From positions 1-38,901 of the forward strand of contig NW_003156735.1 of NCBI RefSeq assembly GCF_000003605.2: a stretch of DNA of 38,901 nucleotides, given 5' to 3'. The notes below the pieces were generated by a model that saw only the letters and a program-made list of their open reading frames with translations, did no database searches and was not told the DNA's origin. Positions 3,864 to 38,901 of the stretch are shown here, in pieces (the stretch's first letter is position 1; every line of letters starts with the position of its first letter). The DNA is from Saccoglossus kowalevskii (taxonomy: Eukaryota > Hemichordata > Enteropneusta > Harrimaniidae). Position numbers and translations under genes: made by a program.

Positions 3864-4302
3864 GTAAAACAGTACTACAAATGGAGAAAGAAATCAGAAT
3901 TTTTTTTATGAAAATAAGACACATTTTTTTTAAATATGAAATATCATCAACAGTATTGGTCACCAATAACCGAAACGGCCATTGGTTGCCATAGTAACAC
4001 AGATACATTGGATATTAAAGCTTCGATACACAGTGCGTGTTCGAACGTCTTTTAAAACGAACACTGTATTTTAAACTCGTTGCGGACGTCACGTGGGAGC
4101 CATACTAGGTTAGTTATACATACACATACAAATGCACACAAAAAATATCTTTCCTGTTCGTTCATTCGCATGAAACTTGTATTTTAGTGGTAGTGAAATG
4201 TTTAATTGTGAAGTGTTTTGACGTTCAATTCGGTAACGAAAAATAATGCAACTATTCTTGTGTTTAGGGGTTTATGGGGTAACAATAGAAACATAAAAAA
4301 TA

Positions 4303-8274: not shown

Positions 8275-8351
8275 CACGTGAATGATGACGTCACGTAGCT
8301 TAGAACACAGAAGGGTGACGTAACACGCCGAATGTGAAGTGTATTATAAAT
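8275..8351 (+). promoter_or_regulatory. Clustered E-box, CRE motifs and TATA-like site
   Basis: A palindromic E-box CACGTG (8275-8280), a perfect CRE TGACGTCA (8286-8293), a CRE-like TGACGTAA (8316-8323) and TATAAAT (about 8345-8351) lie within 77 bases. This order resembles a cAMP-responsive promoter on the plus strand. No exon follows that I can recognise, so it may be a distal element or coincidence. Confidence 0.25.
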
Positions 8352-9133
8352 TGAGATACAATAATAGTTCATATTTGAATTCTCGTCAAGCTTCGGAACT
8401 ATTTGCTCCAAAGTGGGGCATTACCTCGATTTTGTTATTGTATTTTAAGTCGTTAACGTACCGTATATTTCATATGCAGATTGTGTAAATACGATGTGTT
8501 GTTCTCATTTTGCATCACAAGCAGTGTGACACTAAGAGATATTGATGTCCATTTCCAGTTAAGGCTGTTAAGTATCCGTCATATTAGGGAATGGAAATTC
8601 AATTGCATAATTCTTGTTTGTCTTAACAATTTTTTGTGAACGACCTTTTTGAAAGTACACATGTGTTCAACTGTAAAGTACAAGGATTCGATATTTACAT
8701 TTTCACGACACTGTAGCATTCCAAGTGAAACTTTGTTTTAATTTCCCAAGGTCGTGATAACATGTTTCTATTACTTTGGTTCATATTTGCATTTGTTTGC
8801 CCTCACGGAAATGCATTACAATGCAGCAGCATTGTTTCCATTTCAAATTGATTTCCATTTCACCTGATGTTGTACAAAACTAATGCAAAGACGGACCACG
8901 TTTGAATTATAAATCCATTCAAATGAATACAATTTCAAATAGTACTTTTAGTAAATATTGATGGTTATTTTGTGAACTTAGTTTTACCCAAAAATATCGC
9001 GGATCGTTTCTTCATTTTTTATATTTTGTAATAGATGTTACATCTTTATGTCTGCGATATCGTGTTGTAAACTGATGTAAAACGTTCGTCAAAAGGGTAA
9101 TTCATCTATGTATGAATCCCTAGACCTTTGCAG

Positions 9134-9209
9134 GTGATACAATTAATACAAGTACTCAACAACCGACTCATTGTCGATAAAGTTGTAGACTGTGTACGAG
9201 TAGCAGAAG
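9134..9209 (+). CDS. Possible 76-base internal exon (unassigned)
   Basis: The segment is bounded by an acceptor-like ACCTTTGCAG and a strong donor, GAAG|GTAAGCG. Frame 1 is open throughout and reads VIQLIQVLNNRLIVDKVVDC then VRVAE plus one base. The other two frames contain stops. The sequence reads like a helical protein fragment, but it is too short to place in a family. No exon before or after it was identified. An exon of this size arising by chance between splice-like sites in 39 kb is quite possible. Confidence 0.2.
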
Positions 9210-10104
9210 GTAAGCGTCCAATAACTACGCTAAAACTGTGAGATAAAATGATAATACACCAGCGCATGATCGAAGTGATATGTTTAATTAACATGAAAAT
9301 CTAGATGAAACTATTGACATAAACTACAACATTGTCATAAATTATTTACATTGCGTGCACTTTATTTCTGCCCAGTGACAAATAAAAAATACACATCATG
9401 AAAACAAAATGAAATTTTGAGTTTAAATTAATAAGAACGTGCGACAAATGTGTACGACTGCTCGAAGGTATCCGGTCTGTTCTAGGGCGTCGTTACTAGC
9501 AATAGGTAAATCATGATTGGGAAATAGACCAACTGCGCCGTGCACCACACCGATATTGCAAATAAAGTAAAATGTTATCCGAGGCAAACCACATAGACGA
9601 GAAGGAAACGAATAAAGATTATCTGAAAGAATAAAATGAAAATTGTAATTAGGTTTTGTGTGGCAAGACTCTAGTAACCAATCTAACATCACTCAAATGT
9701 CATTTAGTAGAATTGTCTTTGCCAAATAATAAGTTTAATTTTAGAGTCGTACACGACCTTTGAAAACAAAGATTGATGCTATAGATCTTCTTCGTTTTAA
9801 ACAACTCACCGAACAATGAATATTTTAAAAAGAATAGAAACATCAAAGTGTACATTGACGTACATCGACGTCGTGGCTATTGTCCAAATGCATTTGCCTG
9901 GAGCAAAACAGTTGTATCAATGTCATCGAAAAAACAGCAACATGTTGGCTTCTGGTAGTTGCCATTGTTGTTTAATATATCGTTTAATTGTGGCACATAA
10001 TCGATAATCGATGAACATGACTTTTAAAAAAACATCCTGTATTGCAATGTATTACTATTGATAATAACATTCTATTCACTATACGTTTAACACCGCATCA
10101 TGAA

Positions 10105-10132
10105 GTAAAAGTAAATGCAATGCGCTTTTATT
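10105..10132 (-). terminator. Polyadenylation signal of the neuropeptide gene
   Basis: AATAAA on the minus strand at 10127-10132 is the first canonical hexamer downstream of the precursor stop codon, about 380 bases away. T-rich sequence follows, as expected for a downstream element, so cleavage is predicted near 10105-10115. A donor-like site directly after the stop leaves open a spliced 3' UTR with another end. Confidence 0.4.
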
Positions 10133-10509
10133 AAACGTCACAATTATTCTCGAATCATTATTCAAATAAATATACCGGTGTACACTAATTACTTGCTTAC
10201 TGGAAAAGTCGAACAGTAACATGTTAGTTTCACTACAACACTGTACTGTAGTAGTGACATCACGTCCTATCATAATCGCAATCCACGCGACTGAGCATGT
10301 ATTGAAGATATTCGAAGTACATGTCTGTGACAAATTTTATCTTTCATATTTGCATTTACTAAAATGCGTTACAGATGGCGCCAGTATAATTGCAAGATAA
10401 ACGCGATTGGTTACGTTTCATTGCTACGTTGATAGTCCAAAAATACGTCTCAGATTTAAGCTATACAAATTTGGCTTCATATTAACAATGTATAAATTAA
10501 TATAATTAC

Positions 10510-10776
10510 CTATTCTTGTACATCGGCGGTGTTTTCAGCTCTGTCCATGAGTACGTCAAATGCTTTTCTCAGCGTGAGTAGATTTTCCAAAGATTGTGTG
10601 ATCAATTCGTCTATCTCCGCAACTGATGATATATAATCAGATGTTCTCTTTCCAAACATCGCCGTGCCAGAGCTCTGGTAAGAGTGTAGTCTGGATGACT
10701 TTGCTGAAACGTTGACAGAGTGTATCAACAGGCACATGGCCATTAAAGCGGCGGTGATGACTGTGACTTGACGCAT
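10510..10776 (-). CDS. Amidated neuropeptide precursor, single peptide, family unassigned
   Basis: This is a complete 88-residue secreted precursor. Residues 1-25 form a signal peptide with a hydrophobic core around ITAALMAMCLLI and a likely cleavage after NVSA. Residues 26-41 are the predicted peptide KSSRLHSYQSSGTAMF, or LHSYQSSGTAMF if Arg29 is also cut. Gly42-Lys43-Arg44 is the amidation donor plus dibasic cleavage site, giving a Met-Phe-amide C-terminus. Residues 45-88 form an acidic, Leu/Ile-rich, probably helical associated peptide with a further RK at 70-71. The only Cys is in the signal peptide. This layout is typical of GnRH/AKH-, allatotropin/orexin- and SIFamide-type precursors, but none of their core motifs is present. 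The ending distantly recalls echinoderm SALMFamides, without the SxLxF pattern. The ATG has G at -3, and the predicted spliced 5' UTR has no upstream ATG. The family is unknown; its nature as a peptide precursor is well supported. Confidence 0.75.
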   Translation of the reverse strand: MRQVTVITAALMAMCLLIHSVNVSAKSSRLHSYQSSGTAMFGKRTSDYISSVAEIDELITQSLENLLTLRKAFDVLMDRAENTADVQE

Positions 10777-10827
10777 GACTTCAAATTTCTTGTGAAATAA
10801 CCGTGTAATAGATGACGGATAATAAGC
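10777..10827 (-). other. 5' UTR part of exon 2, with splice acceptor
   Basis: On the minus strand the intron ends TATTTATTTTAG (AG at 10828-10829), a good pyrimidine-rich acceptor. It is followed by 51 bases of leader without any ATG, then the start codon at 10776. The leader joins the non-coding exon 1 at 13250. Confidence 0.6.
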
Positions 10828-13249
10828 CTAAAATAAATATTACATATATTAAATGGCGAGAAAAGATTGTGAAGGATGTCTGTTCAACTAAAATGTAAAT
10901 CTCAAGGATTATCGAAATCTCTACATATACCTTTCTAACCACAGCCACAGAACTTAATCAAGATTCAATGACTTGAGGAGAAAAGGGATTAACATGGAGC
11001 CGTTCCCATGACTTATAACCCGAGTTGCTAATCGCAGTAATTTGTAACTTGCTGTTATATAATACCGCGATTAGTATGATAAATACGAATCAAACACACA
11101 ACTGTAATTTTATTAATCGAAATGAGATTGCTCAACTTACCCACCGACTTATCTTTTTACCTATTTTTGTAACCGTATAAATGAAAATCGGTGTGTTATT
11201 TTGAATGTACACAATTATTTTAGTTTCGTATAAAACTTGAAATTCACCAGTTACGAATACTGATTTTCCTTCTTAAACGATTGATTTCATCACGGGGGTC
11301 ATTATTGAACTTGTACTAGAAAAGGGTGAAACGATACGTTTTAGCATTTATCTATTTCTAGTCGATATGAGTTGTTGTCACCAGAGTATTGTAAACTATT
11401 CTGTTTTTAAATTGTAAGTTATATTCATTATAATGTTCGAATACTGCCATTGCGTGAGCAATTAATATACACGATAATCGCGTCCATAATACACGTATAT
11501 CAATTAAGCCAAACCTTTCAATACACACGTGTTTAGCAACGATGTTAGTACAAAAGAAAAATATATAAATTACGATTATCGACGATATCAGCATGTCTTT
11601 CAAAGTAATCAATGCACCATTGTGTTTCAAAACATTCTAACTGACCTGTAATGTCACTAAGATTACTTTTACCCAAAGTTAAATTGTAATCAAAAGCCCA
11701 TCTTTTGTGTACCGATTCAATTTCATTTTGTGTCTGTGGCAATGCACTGACATGTATCGGTGCGTCAAAGGAGCAATACGACGGCGATTGATATATACAT
11801 ATATTAAATGAGAAATAACTCGTTTTATTACCCGATCAATCAATCATATACTGAATGTATAATGAGGACATTCTATCAACAGTCCAATTATTTTGGGGAG
11901 AAAACATCGTGGCGCCAACAAAGATCACTTAATAAAATTACTCGGAGTGATTGATATTTTTACACTGCCCGGTAATCACTCGTGGTCAATGAATCACGCC
12001 ATAATGTGATTGCTGAAATTCTACTCACAAGAGATGACAGCCGATAAAATCTTGTGTTTTAGAGTACTCTCTACAAGGATTGTAATTCACCTGTTCTACT
12101 TTATCGTTATAAGGCTGGTTCTATAATGCATATCTTTTAAATATTGCCAACAGGATGATTCACGTGATGCCGACAATATGAATACTATATTAAAAAATAT
12201 ACCTAGCAAGAGTAGAGGTTGGTGTTTCTGTCACGCCATGAGCATTTCATGTTATAGTGGAAATATTTGTTAGCACAGTGCAAAGTTGAAAAAAAAACGC
12301 TAAATCGTTCATTATAACAATGAATTCGAATAGCATGCATGGGAAACGAAATGTAGAACTTCGATATGACTACTCATTGAAGTCATGTATAATGTAATAT
12401 GCTAAGGCTTTATCCGTGTGTGCATATTCGGCTAATCAAAATTATACGTTTATGCGATCACACATGCTTCCTGTTAACGGTTAACTCAACACGACGACTG
12501 CGATAGGTGACTCGGCTTAACTCAATACACGTACGTGCGTTGAAATCGACAACGATCACAGGTATTGTTTATTTGCGTGACGTGTAATGCATAACATCAC
12601 GTATGAATTTGACACCTCGTTGCTATATTTGTGTCTTATGCTATAGCCTGGCGATTTCGAAAAAAACGGTGAACCGATTGTACGATTGAAACGTATTGAT
12701 TCAAATTTAGCGATACACCATTCAACGTAATCATCCACAAGGATTCCGCAAGCAACATGCTTTTGTTTCACATTAAATATGAATTGCGTCAGAAACCGCA
12801 TGAAATATATTATATTTCTTCAAGTTCAATGAATTAAATAAAGTGCCTTGAATATTATATATGTGCAAAGTTTATTCTTTCAAAGGATGACTGACGAATT
12901 ACTGCAGCATTCTAGTTTCTGATAAACAGTGACCGGTAAGACTTTATATCAAATTTCCTATAGTTTACATGATTGAGCCAAATTAGAAATAATAAATTTG
13001 TAAATGTGTTTTTCGTAATGTCCTAAAACTGTAAACAGCGATGATTTGCGTTACGGCGAACTGATTAAATAATTCCCGATGGAAAGCGTGTGGTAGGCGA
13101 TAGTTCGCACAGTGAAACTAATACGACATGGACACTAATGGAGATATCGTATCGATTGATGCTAAACAGATTTATATTAACAGAAAATAACAAATGTCAC
13201 ATGTATGCACAGGCACATAACAACTGTATAAACTAGCTTGCCAACTCAC
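10828..13249 (-). other. First intron of the neuropeptide gene
   Basis: This intron of about 2.4 kb separates the non-coding exon 1 from the coding exon. It has a consensus GTGAGT donor and a TTTTAG acceptor. Open frames inside it (11358-11742 and 12556-12801) show no protein character. Large 5'-UTR introns in peptide genes often hold enhancers, but I see no specific element beyond AT-rich sequence and scattered homeodomain-type cores. Confidence 0.55.
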
Positions 13250-13343
13250 CTTTTTAAACAGCTGTAGCCAACGTGTATGACACTTGCTATTTCGCTCACT
13301 GAATAGACGTGCTACGGTGTGTACCAAGTTTCGAGTCACTTGT
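13250..13343 (-). other. Non-coding exon 1 (5' UTR) of the neuropeptide gene
   Basis: The predicted exon is about 94 bases, from the start site at 13343 to AAAAAG|GTGAGT, with the donor beginning at 13249. It contains no ATG on the minus strand, consistent with a pure leader. The start is inferred from the TATA box 24-31 bases upstream and a CA dinucleotide at 13344-13343. Confidence 0.55.
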
Positions 13344-13366
13344 GCCAGCGAAGAGCGATTCGAGCT

Positions 13367-13374
13367 GTTTTATA
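13367..13374 (-). promoter_or_regulatory. TATA box of the neuropeptide gene
   Basis: TATAAAAC reads on the minus strand, with its first T 31 bases upstream of a CA initiator-like pair at 13344-13343. It is followed by a short leader that ends in a consensus donor. The correct order and spacing of TATA, start, donor, acceptor and ATG make this the strongest promoter in the window. Confidence 0.55.
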
Positions 13375-13476
13375 CGTTGGCGAATGCGACGCTACGAATT
13401 AACGATTAGTTAGAACGGAACACCGGTTGGTTGATTTCAGCTCATTAGATCATTATGCCCCATCTGAACGTGGTGA

Positions 13477-13483
13477 TGACGTA
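13477..13483 (-). promoter_or_regulatory. CRE-like half site upstream of the neuropeptide promoter
   Basis: TGACGTA (TACGTCA on the minus strand) lies about 135 bases upstream of the predicted start. CREB-type sites at this distance are common in neuropeptide promoters. Activity-dependent control is an inference from the motif alone. Confidence 0.3.
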
Positions 13484-13499
13484 GGAGTGGAACTTCAGT

Positions 13500-16400
13500 G
13501 CCCTTCCTTAAATGGTATGGTGATTCTTTTGAATATATCCGCACGGGTACAAATAAATAAATAAACAACAAATCAAAAGACAGGAAACTACAGTAACTGT
13601 GATAAATGCGGCGACATTATTCCTAGATCAAACTGACGCTTAACCACTATGAGGAAGTGAACAACCCAATCACTGTACCGCCCCTATTTTGATAATAGAA
13701 TAGTCCAATGCATGCTGTGAACAATCTGTTTTTGAAGTACTCGTTTTCTAGAAACATTAATATCGTACTGTGCTGTAGTATCCCACTAATTTTGCCGCTG
13801 ATATATTATATTATGAAACTAAACTAGTCCCTGTACGCGATACAAATGGTGATCACGCCTCAAAAGCAGAAAACACAAAATCCTTATTGATTGTGTCATA
13901 AATATACGTTTCCACAATTTTGAAAAGTAAAGCTTCGGCAGGTTTTCATGGTAAATTGATTTTGTTTCTCTTTGCGCCCCGGGAGTTTAATACGTAATTA
14001 TAATGTGTTATTTTATATCACAAGTCTTGGTAAGGTATTTCTGGATGTCAGGCATTTCATATTGCCACATGATCCAACGTGAGTAATACATATAACCAAT
14101 TGCGCATTGGAAGGCATATATTCTCGTTATTTCCCAAATGGCTGGGTAATCACGTGAACGCAATCCATAAATCTGTATTTGCGTGTTCTCCTGGTACATT
14201 CGTTTTCAGTGTTTTAGCACCACTGAGTCAGGAACATGGTAATACCATCTTTGATTGAGAAAATGCAATCACCAAAATGTTCAGGTCGAGACAGAATGTC
14301 TAGGATCACCACTACGTTGCTGGAAGATGAGCGATTTCAATAGTTTCTGTCATTTAGTGGCCTGTGACATCTGCGGAGTGTAACATATATCGTTCAAAAA
14401 AAATAGATCATATAACGTTCCGATTTTCTCAAAGTAAATAAAATAATACACACGTCCAAAAGTAAAATTAATATAGTATTAAGCAGCTCATAACGTAAAT
14501 ATTATCCACTACCATAATGTACAGTTTAAATAAAACTGTGCCGTGCCGACTTTTATTTTAATTTTGTATTTTTTCGATTATATAGTCCCTCATGGCACCC
14601 GAATCTGTCATTTCATTTGTAAACAGTATAATGAGACGTTTATTCTTGAATGTTTAATTGGCAACTTGCATTCATCTAAATAGTTCATTGTGTTGACCAC
14701 ACTAGACACTCAACTACGCTCAGTTGAATCCAGCTTAATTAATTTTGTCGATTTCCGCGTAAGCTACTATTTTACGTTGTGCGCATGCGTACGTATGTGT
14801 GTAAATTAAAAATGCTGTCTATATTCCGAGCTTGAACTTTATTCTAGTAACGTTTTCCTGCATACATTTAACGTCGGTTTTCCCATGCGTTAATTTGCTT
14901 GGAAATAACAGAGATACACATCACAAATACATTGTGACGTCACAGATTATGTATAGATGGGACTGGTGTCATCACTCGATATGATGCACCATAGAAATTA
15001 AGGAACACGTCTGAAAGCATTACTAATTATGCTGAAGTTAATATAATGCTGTTCCTATAATATGTTCGCCTACATATCGTTTAAAATAAGTTTATTTATA
15101 ACTTGTTATTGAAGTATTGATTCAGAAATGAAATCACACAGATCAACAACCGTATCCTCAAATTCAATAATATACTAGTACTCTATAATACTACAAAAAC
15201 GAAGTAGTTAACCATGTTTGAATATATACCGAATTGAACGTTAGCATTTCTCGAAAAGTTGGGAATCATTTATTTTTATAAAGTATGAATCGCGGTGAAT
15301 GCGCACCTATGTTGTCATCAATGTTTGATTTACGTACAGTCGTGTGTTATGTATAGCCGTGCGTCAGTTTTGTGTTATATACGTAGTTCTTCACATGTTA
15401 ATCTTTTTAAAAAAAATTAAATGTTTTTTTACATGCGGCCACATATATACGTAATACCAGAGATATGATATGTCTACTTGGTACGATTTAATAATAAAGA
15501 TTATGTTATTACTACGGTTTGATATGCGTACTTATCTTGGCTATATCAGTAACCAAATGCTACAATCTCGGCACACACTAATGACGTTTTCATTGCAGAC
15601 ACATATCGATTGCCGAAATACTGCGTTGATTAATCTAATTACAATGACACGGTAACCTTGTTGTGATGCAAAACAGCCTAGGTTACATTATAAGACCCTG
15701 GAGTCTACTCATAGCAGAACGATTATCGATATATTGCAAAGTAAAAAAAATCGAATTTCGCTCGACGAAGCTGTGATAAAGTATACATCTCAGCATATAT
15801 TACGACAATTGGCATTGATTGTGGAAAGCGATTTAGATTCACCAAGCGACGAGAAACACGAACGTAGTTTACAACTTCCTTTAGTGAGCATAGTTGTTGT
15901 TCCGAGCAAGATAGCAACATTATTTTTGTTTTCGGAATATAAATTCCTTCCTATTACATATACATTTAGTTTGAATAAGTTCTACAGTACAAACTCGCGT
16001 AGGATATCAGTATAGTTGCTCCAAACTATAGGCTTTCGACTTATTAACAAATGAACTATATTATTATATATTACCAATCTTTATATTTCTGATATCAAAA
16101 TAATATTTTAGAACTCGCTGTGCTCACAATCGTTAAGTTACATTATCAATTAAAACATTGCCACAATTCCCAAGTAATTGGTAGTACATGATGACGTAAC
16201 AAATTTGAACATTCGAGTAATGACTGTATAACAAATTTTTGTAATGTTTTTTTTCCATCACGAACGTTACATAATGTTTACGTTGATTTCATGCATGGAG
16301 CAATTGCTCGCCGGATCTTTCCTGATAGGTATACATGGAAAATCTCCTTAAGCACGAACTAACGCGGATGTCATTGTTTGATCGAGCGAGAAGTCTCTAA

Positions 16401-18563: not shown

Positions 18564-19019
18564 TGGACGGTATTATGGGCGTCTTTGCCGATCTTCCAAA
18601 CATTACTAAATCAGAGAACGTTTTACTAAACCGTTTTAAGTACGCACATGTATACATAATGTTGGATCGATTTGATCCCACATCGGTGTTCTCACACTCC
18701 TAGCGGCCAGGAATGAGAGAATAACTGGATTCGTAGCAACATCCATATTTTCATATTAAAAGTATCGTCTTTGATTGAATTGTAACCCAGGACAAATAAC
18801 TTGGGTCTATTTATACCATATACGCTACCCTCGAAGGTCACTGTATTTTAATGTTGCCATGGTGATTAACTAGTCAGGGAAACTAGTCATGTAATATGAG
18901 TATCGCACCTTTAGACATAGTTACATCAAAATTGAAATCATTGCTGCTAAACACCGTATACAGTATTCGTCATTGGTAATGACGTCATTTTGAATAGGGT
19001 CATGTATGGACACCAACGT

Positions 19020-26179: not shown

Positions 26180-27170
26180 ATCACTTCGACCAAATATCCA
26201 CCATGCACAACTACACCTAACATACATCAATCACTGCCAATCTCCCACAAAATAACAACACTTATATTAGAAATATGCAATATTTATTTCATGTAACTTA
26301 ACAAGTGACATATTACTTAATTGGATACATACATACTTTGTACATACATTGAAAAAAACACACGAAAGACACAGTAAACGTTACTTTCAGCTGTGTGAAT
26401 CAATCAATTTATCGAGTATAACAGTGTTGCATTGAATTAAGAACTTATCAAATGCAAGTTATTTCACCACTCGCCAGATAAAAATGTCAGAACGCATTGG
26501 AAGTGACTTTCTCACGCACGTTCTACAACTTTATCTTCATTCATAAGTCACTCAGCTTAGAGCGTTGCTGGCGTGGCACGCGTAGAGCTCTCACGGCGTA
26601 GAACGCACAACAGCGATTCCGGATGTGACGTATCAGAGGCGGCTTCTTCGTACATATTTACTTCATATAAAGAATACCCTAAACATCAAAACAGAGTATC
26701 TTACTTGATATCCATTCTGGCACGTTCGTTGTCTATTTCGGATGGCTAAACTTTCTTCAAAACCTTGAAAGCACCCCGAAAGCAACAGCCAGGACAGCAG
26801 CAGTGCTGCGAACGACAAATTGTTATGCGCGGTAGTTTGCGTGACGTCATCCATGTGACATACCATGTAATATCCACCTGACAGGCATTATACTATGTAA
26901 TATCCATTTTTAGTAAATTTTTAAGCTCAAACTCGACAAATCAAATAACGCATCTATGGTATTACCTTATAATACGTGTGTAATACTTGTGTGAACACCT
27001 TCAAATGAATCAGAGAATTTATTATTGAGAATTGGTATTGACGTGAATACAATCCAATTTTTCTCGAATCTCAACAAAAAAAATATGACGCGCCCCTGTA
27101 ACTCAGTATGAAATTCCTGATACAAAGTTTGAATCGGTTCCAAACACTTTTAAATATTAGAATTTAGCAA
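26180..27170. other. No gene seen
   Basis: A minus-strand frame at 26663-26866 contains a hydrophobic leucine-rich segment but no domain or clear start context. A perfect CRE octamer lies at 26842-26849. The rest is plain AT-rich sequence. Confidence 0.5.
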
Positions 27171-34960: not shown

Positions 34961-35105
34961 ATGAATGAATGAATGAATGAATGAATGAATGAATGAATGA
35001 ATGAATGAATGAATGAATGAATGAATGAATATGAATGAATGAATGAATGAATGAATGAATGAATGAATGAATGAATGAATGAATGAATGAATGAATGAAT
35101 GAATG
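34961..35105. repeat. ATGA tetranucleotide microsatellite
   Basis: About 145 bases of (ATGA)n in two blocks. The phase slips by two bases at 35030/35031, after 70 bases of the first block. Twelve bases encode four residues, so the minus strand reads as a Ser-Phe-Ile-His repeat. That explains the two overlapping open frames here; they are not genes. Confidence 0.97.
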
Positions 35106-38524: not shown

Positions 38525-38901
38525 TTTTGTTGGCGGATTACCGCACAATACACTAGTGTGACGTCATGGTCGTGGTTTAGTATGTACTAATTAACACAAA
38601 TGTTTCGGATGAAAGCAAGATTCCAAGTGGGTGGAAATCTGTGAATGGGTCCGAGGTGCTGATCACGATTTAAATTATTCATTGCAAAACTAATTGTTTT
38701 ATATTAGCTGATGTAAATTCATGTCAGTCGTAATTAATGATTAATACGTCAAGTACAACTATTATAATTATGACCGAAAGAAGCTAAGTGTTTCCATTAC
38801 AGCCGATACGGATAGTTCTGAACAAAATAAATAAATATATTTCATTGGTAAGTTCCCGCTTAGGATATTGTTCACCTGTATGGATACGAGTTATCATACC
38901 T
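38525..38901. other. No gene seen
   Basis: AT-rich sequence to the window end. It contains a perfect CRE octamer at 38559-38566, close to the TTCTAGAA cluster, and nothing else that I can support. Confidence 0.6.

Follow-up and report, generated by a model that had tools for sequence, protein, structure and literature searches.

On the minus strand of the analysed window, the first 38,901 bases of a 904,863-bp contig of Saccoglossus kowalevskii (NW_003156735.1), lies a predicted two-exon gene for a short secreted precursor. A sequence scan finds a TATA box there (13374), followed in turn by an ATG-free leader, a splice donor, a splice acceptor, an ORF of 88 codons and an AATAAA signal (10132) (Table 1). 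The initial annotation had described such a series of landmarks, and every sequence element in it could be located; its signal peptide and helical tail are predictions.

Table 1. Proposed gene, predicted precursor parts and nearby regulatory-like site (window coordinates)
Feature	Position	Strand	Basis or remark
TACGTCA, CRE-like half site	13477..13483	-	script match; ~100 bp upstream of the TATA box
TATA box (TATAAAA)	13368..13374	-	sequence; context CGTATAAAACAG at 13376-13365
Proposed exon 1, ATG-free 5' leader	13250..13343	-	start site placed from TATA spacing only
Proposed intron, GTGAGT...ATTTATTTTAG, 2,422 nt	10828..13249	-	sequence only
Proposed exon 2, coding part: 51-nt leader and whole CDS	10510..10827	-	ATG 10776, stop TAG 10512-10510
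Predicted signal peptide, residues 1-25 (MRQVTVITAALMAMCLLIHSVNVSA)	10702..10776	-	crude hydrophobicity model and -3,-1 rule; predicted cleavage site
Predicted mature peptide KSSRLHSYQSSGTAMF-amide, residues 26-41	10654..10701	-	sequence
Predicted Gly-Lys-Arg amidation and cleavage site, residues 42-44	10645..10653	-	sequence
C-terminal tail, 44 aa	10513..10644	-	net charge -7, no Cys; computed
Poly(A) signal AATAAA	10127..10132	-	AATAAAAG at 10132-10125

Two CA dinucleotides, at 13344-13343 and 13342-13341, lie 31-33 nt below the TATA box and are candidate transcription starts, and no ATG occurs in the leader tested (13340-13250 plus 10827-10777). The donor reads AAG/GTGAGT, with 13250 as the last base of exon 1 and GTGAGT starting at 13249; matches to the pattern [AC]AGGT[AG]AGT number three on both strands of the window. 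The acceptor, TTTTAG, makes 10827 the first base of exon 2. The 88 codons of the CDS occupy 10776-10513, with the TAG ending at 10510, and the frame is open upstream as far as the acceptor, giving 105 codons in total. The G+C content of the CDS is 0.447, compared with 0.334-0.388 in the 1-kb blocks from 9001 to 14000. On sequence grounds, the proposed two-exon, TATA-promoter gene model holds, and the 3' UTR would end near 10105, the end given in the initial annotation. Directly 3' of the TAG stop (window 10513-10504) there is a donor-like GTAATT, so that the 3' part may have a more complex structure, perhaps with another intron in the 3' UTR.

The precursor is laid out as MRQVTVITAALMAMCLLIHSVNVSA / KSSRLHSYQSSGTAMF / GKR / TSDYISSVAEIDELITQSLENLLTLRKAFDVLMDRAENTADVQE. 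Where the signal peptide ends is uncertain: cleavage between residues 25 and 26 (VSA/K) fits the -3,-1 rule, and the crude script picked residue 20. Were the peptide to be cleaved after Arg29, the predicted alternative product would be LHSYQSSGTAMF-amide, and the calculated [M+H]+ values are 1785.8701 for KSSRLHSYQSSGTAMF-amide, 1657.7751 for the form lacking Lys26 and 1327.6099 for LHSYQSSGTAMF-amide. The predicted peptide is rich in Ser and lacks amphipathicity (moment 0.14, mean hydrophobicity -0.12), and the tail is amphipathic in helical projection (moment 0.23-0.47 in 18-residue windows), with a possible Arg-Lys cleavage site inside it (LTLRKAF). An acidic, Cys-free amphipathic tail beside a non-amphipathic peptide is what one would expect for a spacer next to a bioactive peptide. 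The general features of amidated precursors, namely a predicted signal peptide, a Gly-dibasic site and a short secreted ORF, are all present, and the window contains one such ORF.

A search with the precursor against its own genome, comprising 572,110,611 bases (572 Mb) in 4,830 contigs, returned one full match. The sole other match up to an E-value of 10, at locus L003, had an E-value of 9.75 and 25% identity over 56 residues; its frame has a hydrophobic start, but lacks both a G[KR][KR] site and a peptide-like block. The claim of a single-copy gene made in the initial annotation thus agrees with one full genome match within one search, in which copy counts are lower bounds, as only the best candidates (2 of 2) were scored. 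Neither a Pfam scan of the precursor nor a phmmer search of the PDB gave a match. In the prokaryote and viral contigs, respectively, 91 and 18 stretches fit a pattern and none was confirmed, a silence that means little for the candidate gene, because these collections are of prokaryotes and viruses. A six-frame Pfam scan of the window, carried out in chunks, such that a domain split at a chunk end could escape, found no family above the cut-off and three weak matches (E-values of 0.11, 0.13 and 0.22); the ORF therefore shows no sign of belonging to a known domain protein. The window gave two Rfam matches far below the gathering threshold (E-values of 0.62 and 1) and no tRNA with ARAGORN. Thus, the window yielded no further recognisable gene, a statement that covers genes with Pfam domains only. 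A scan of the promoter for sigma-70 sites and terminators, which are bacterial signals and uninformative for an animal, found none.

To what extent such an ORF could arise by chance was assessed with a crude precursor model, which requires a hydrophobic start after a basic residue, a -3,-1 site, G[KR][KR] four or more residues further on and a length of 50-250 aa. The 88-codon ORF was the single ORF in the real window that passed. Among order-2 Markov windows of equal length, 130 of 3,793 (~3.4%) held a passing ORF (133 ORFs, 30 of them at least 88 aa long); the order-1 simulation of 150 windows yielded a mean of 0.04 passing ORFs per window and one ORF of at least 88 aa. No ORF passed in 52,434 non-N bases taken from other stretches of the same genome (L003-L013). 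The unit formed by a TATA box, an ATG-free leader and [AC]AGGT[AG]AGT occurred 49 times in 256,568,552 random bases read on one strand; in the window, with both strands counted, its sole occurrence is at the candidate gene. Both tests were devised post hoc, with the gene already seen, so that these figures overstate significance and are used here as support, not as proof. By amino-acid composition, the ORF ranks first in the window with a score of 9.4; the maximum in 100 random windows has a median of 8.9 and reaches 10.8 at its 95% point. The score falls inside this null range, and composition alone is accordingly no proof of coding, a neutral result. The possibility that we are dealing with a chance ORF or a decayed gene from which no peptide is made draws on this composition score, on the share of random windows holding a crude-model ORF and on the selection of the feature among many windows. 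Against it stand a frame intact over 105 codons and the alignment of the TATA box, ATG-free leader, consensus donor, acceptor and poly(A) signal with the ORF, and we consider such an origin very improbable. The locus is probably a genuine gene, found in one copy, that encodes a secreted amidated peptide.

The candidate was compared with known peptide families by their motifs. Allatotropin-type peptides of protostomes start with GF and end in ARGF-amide or similar; the candidate ends in GTAMF-amide and has no GF start, a hint that it may not be of this type. In SIFamide-type precursors, one peptide follows the signal peptide and is itself followed by a GKR site, as in the candidate, and bombesin-type precursors have a helical tail. 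The tail was the reason for considering the bombesin type, in which the peptide adjoins the signal peptide, as predicted for the candidate too, and the echinoderm and chordate genes have a phase-1 intron within the peptide codons (excerpts of PMC12002301); this type was rejected because the candidate peptide is encoded, in our model, by one uninterrupted exon. GnRH-type precursors, as described in part of PMC4772807, hold a single amidated peptide adjoining the signal peptide, then a dibasic site and a tail, an arrangement that the candidate shares; their peptide bears an N-terminal pyroGlu (Gln) and a GWxP motif, and KSSRLHSYQSSGTAMF has neither an N-terminal Gln nor a Trp. SALMFamides derive from multi-peptide precursors and have S/TxLxF/Y-amide or F/YxF/Y-amide ends (PMC4772807, in part), and the candidate precursor has one peptide, with A at -3.

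It could be argued that the peptide comes from a known bilaterian aromatic-amide family, be it kisspeptin-type, SIFamide/IMFamide/SMYamide or allatotropin/orexin, and has diverged strongly. The kisspeptin-type motif, NxxSxxLxF-amide in the excerpted text of PMC4772807, where the starfish precursor bears two peptides, agrees with the candidate at two of four positions (S at -6 and F-amide at -1); at the other two, N (-9) and L (-3), the candidate has Y and A, respectively. Similarly, the MF-amide end resembles that of IMFamide, NYKNAPMNGIMFamide (PMC4926255, in part), and the AMYamide end of the SIFamide relative of Locusta (excerpts of PMC4237046), but the peptide is without the NG core, and the 44-aa tail, with no Cys at all, is without the Cys pair, six residues apart, common to the IMFamide and SIFamide tails in the former source. 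The deuterostome orexins described in part of PMC4772807, apart from vertebrate OX-B, have four or six cysteines, against none in the candidate peptide, a comparison that does not cover the Cys-free OX-B. The initial annotation, which had reported the layout of such families and the lack of their core motifs, was right on the latter for GnRH, SIFamide and the cysteine-bearing orexin, each of which was tested. We regard descent from one of these aromatic-amide families, with divergence of this extent, as unlikely. The layout is also common to some amidated host-defence peptides, in the precursors of which a signal peptide is followed by a short basic peptide, then GKR and then an acidic tail, and the gene might accordingly encode a secreted product other than a neuropeptide, for example, a peptide of host-defence or venom type that is amidated and has an acidic propiece. 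Genes for peptides of this kind are often multicopy, whereas one copy was found here, and the Ser-rich candidate is not amphipathic, which speaks against a membrane-lytic role. A defence or venom function appears, on this evidence, to have a very low probability.

The best reading is that the gene encodes a secreted amidated neuropeptide that is either lineage-restricted or fast-diverging, in the latter case an old family member beyond recognition, and we put the probability of this at about 0.74. Peptides of comparable status have been predicted in crinoids, where the precursors PCNP2-PCNP20 are without known homologues and several contain one amidated peptide (excerpts of PMC9793003). PCNP2 and PCNP5 have a signal peptide and one amidated peptide nearby, for which the authors, in the same excerpts, found no homology in other echinoderms. 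The crinoid peptides IHKGTQW-NH2 and GHPKSNFILMP-NH2 follow a basic cleavage site (PMC9793003, in part), whereas the candidate peptide is predicted to come directly after the signal peptide, and by eye there is no sequence similarity between the crinoid orphans and the candidate. Given the single-peptide orphan precursors in crinoids, a further orphan of this kind would not be surprising.

If the neuropeptide reading is correct, the two-exon, TATA-promoter gene would give rise to a short secreted precursor, the signal peptide of which would be cleaved in the ER, exposing Lys26. A proprotein convertase would then cleave at GKR and the basic residues would be trimmed, leaving a Gly that peptidylglycine alpha-amidating monooxygenase would convert into the C-terminal amide. 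The product, KSSRLHSYQSSGTAMF-amide or the shorter form, would be stored with the acidic tail in dense-core vesicles; the tail would act as a spacer, and the Arg-Lys pair may split it in two. By analogy with other precursors of this kind, we would expect neurons or endocrine cells to release the peptide, and its receptor to be, most likely, a G-protein-coupled one. Transcription, splicing, processing, amidation, cell type and receptor are all predicted for the candidate in this scheme.

Among the literature matches listed, judged partly by title and including few subscription journals and no supplements, no described peptide with the candidate's end was found; the string 'amfamide' occurred inside 'SLAMFamide' in one reference list. 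Together with the negative Pfam and PDB results, this provides a lead that the candidate peptide may be undescribed, as proposed in the initial annotation, the interpretation of which is supported in part. That '...SSGTAMF-amide' founds a one-lineage family with an orphan receptor of its own, unrelated by descent to the described families, is a tentative proposition, to which we give somewhat less than even odds. The peptide, if made, would lengthen the list of lineage-limited neuropeptides and not introduce a new kind of biology, and the picture of how neuropeptides are built and processed would be unchanged. It would supply an orphan receptor with a defined ligand, the masses of which are exactly known, and would help to test how often, within one lineage, single-copy amidated peptides newly appear or change beyond recognition.

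Besides the CRE-like half site upstream of the TATA box, full CRE palindromes, TGACGTCA, are present at five window positions (8286-8293, 14935-14942, 18980-18987, 26842-26849 and 38559-38566). Five is to be compared with 0.85 expected, and this number was reached in none of 100 shuffles; elsewhere in the genome, nine were counted in 70,137 non-N bases (L003-L016), which are equally rich. The CRE enrichment looks genome-wide, and since TGACGTCA is common across the genome, the half site near the TATA box is weak evidence and the full CREs were not counted as specific to the gene. Another site, GTTGCCATAGTAAC at window 3985-3998, resembles the RFX X-box consensus. The pattern was copied from the window, which makes the exact match circular; with up to two mismatches allowed, it matches once in the window, where 0.28 matches are expected, and at least once in 22 of 100 shuffles.

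The dinucleotide composition of the sequence is characterised by a CpG observed/expected ratio of 1.17, that is, without depletion, and a CA/TG value of 1.22. An (ATGA)n microsatellite of 145 bp (36.8 copies, 97% matches) occupies window positions 34961-35105, and farther stretches of the same contig contain long N gaps. In L004 (6213-7112), two minus-strand ORFs appear by eye to belong to a broken non-LTR retrotransposon reverse transcriptase, and L007 (798-2056), likewise judged by eye, is a minisatellite, the frames of which read as repeats of THSYVCPFHYS or similar.
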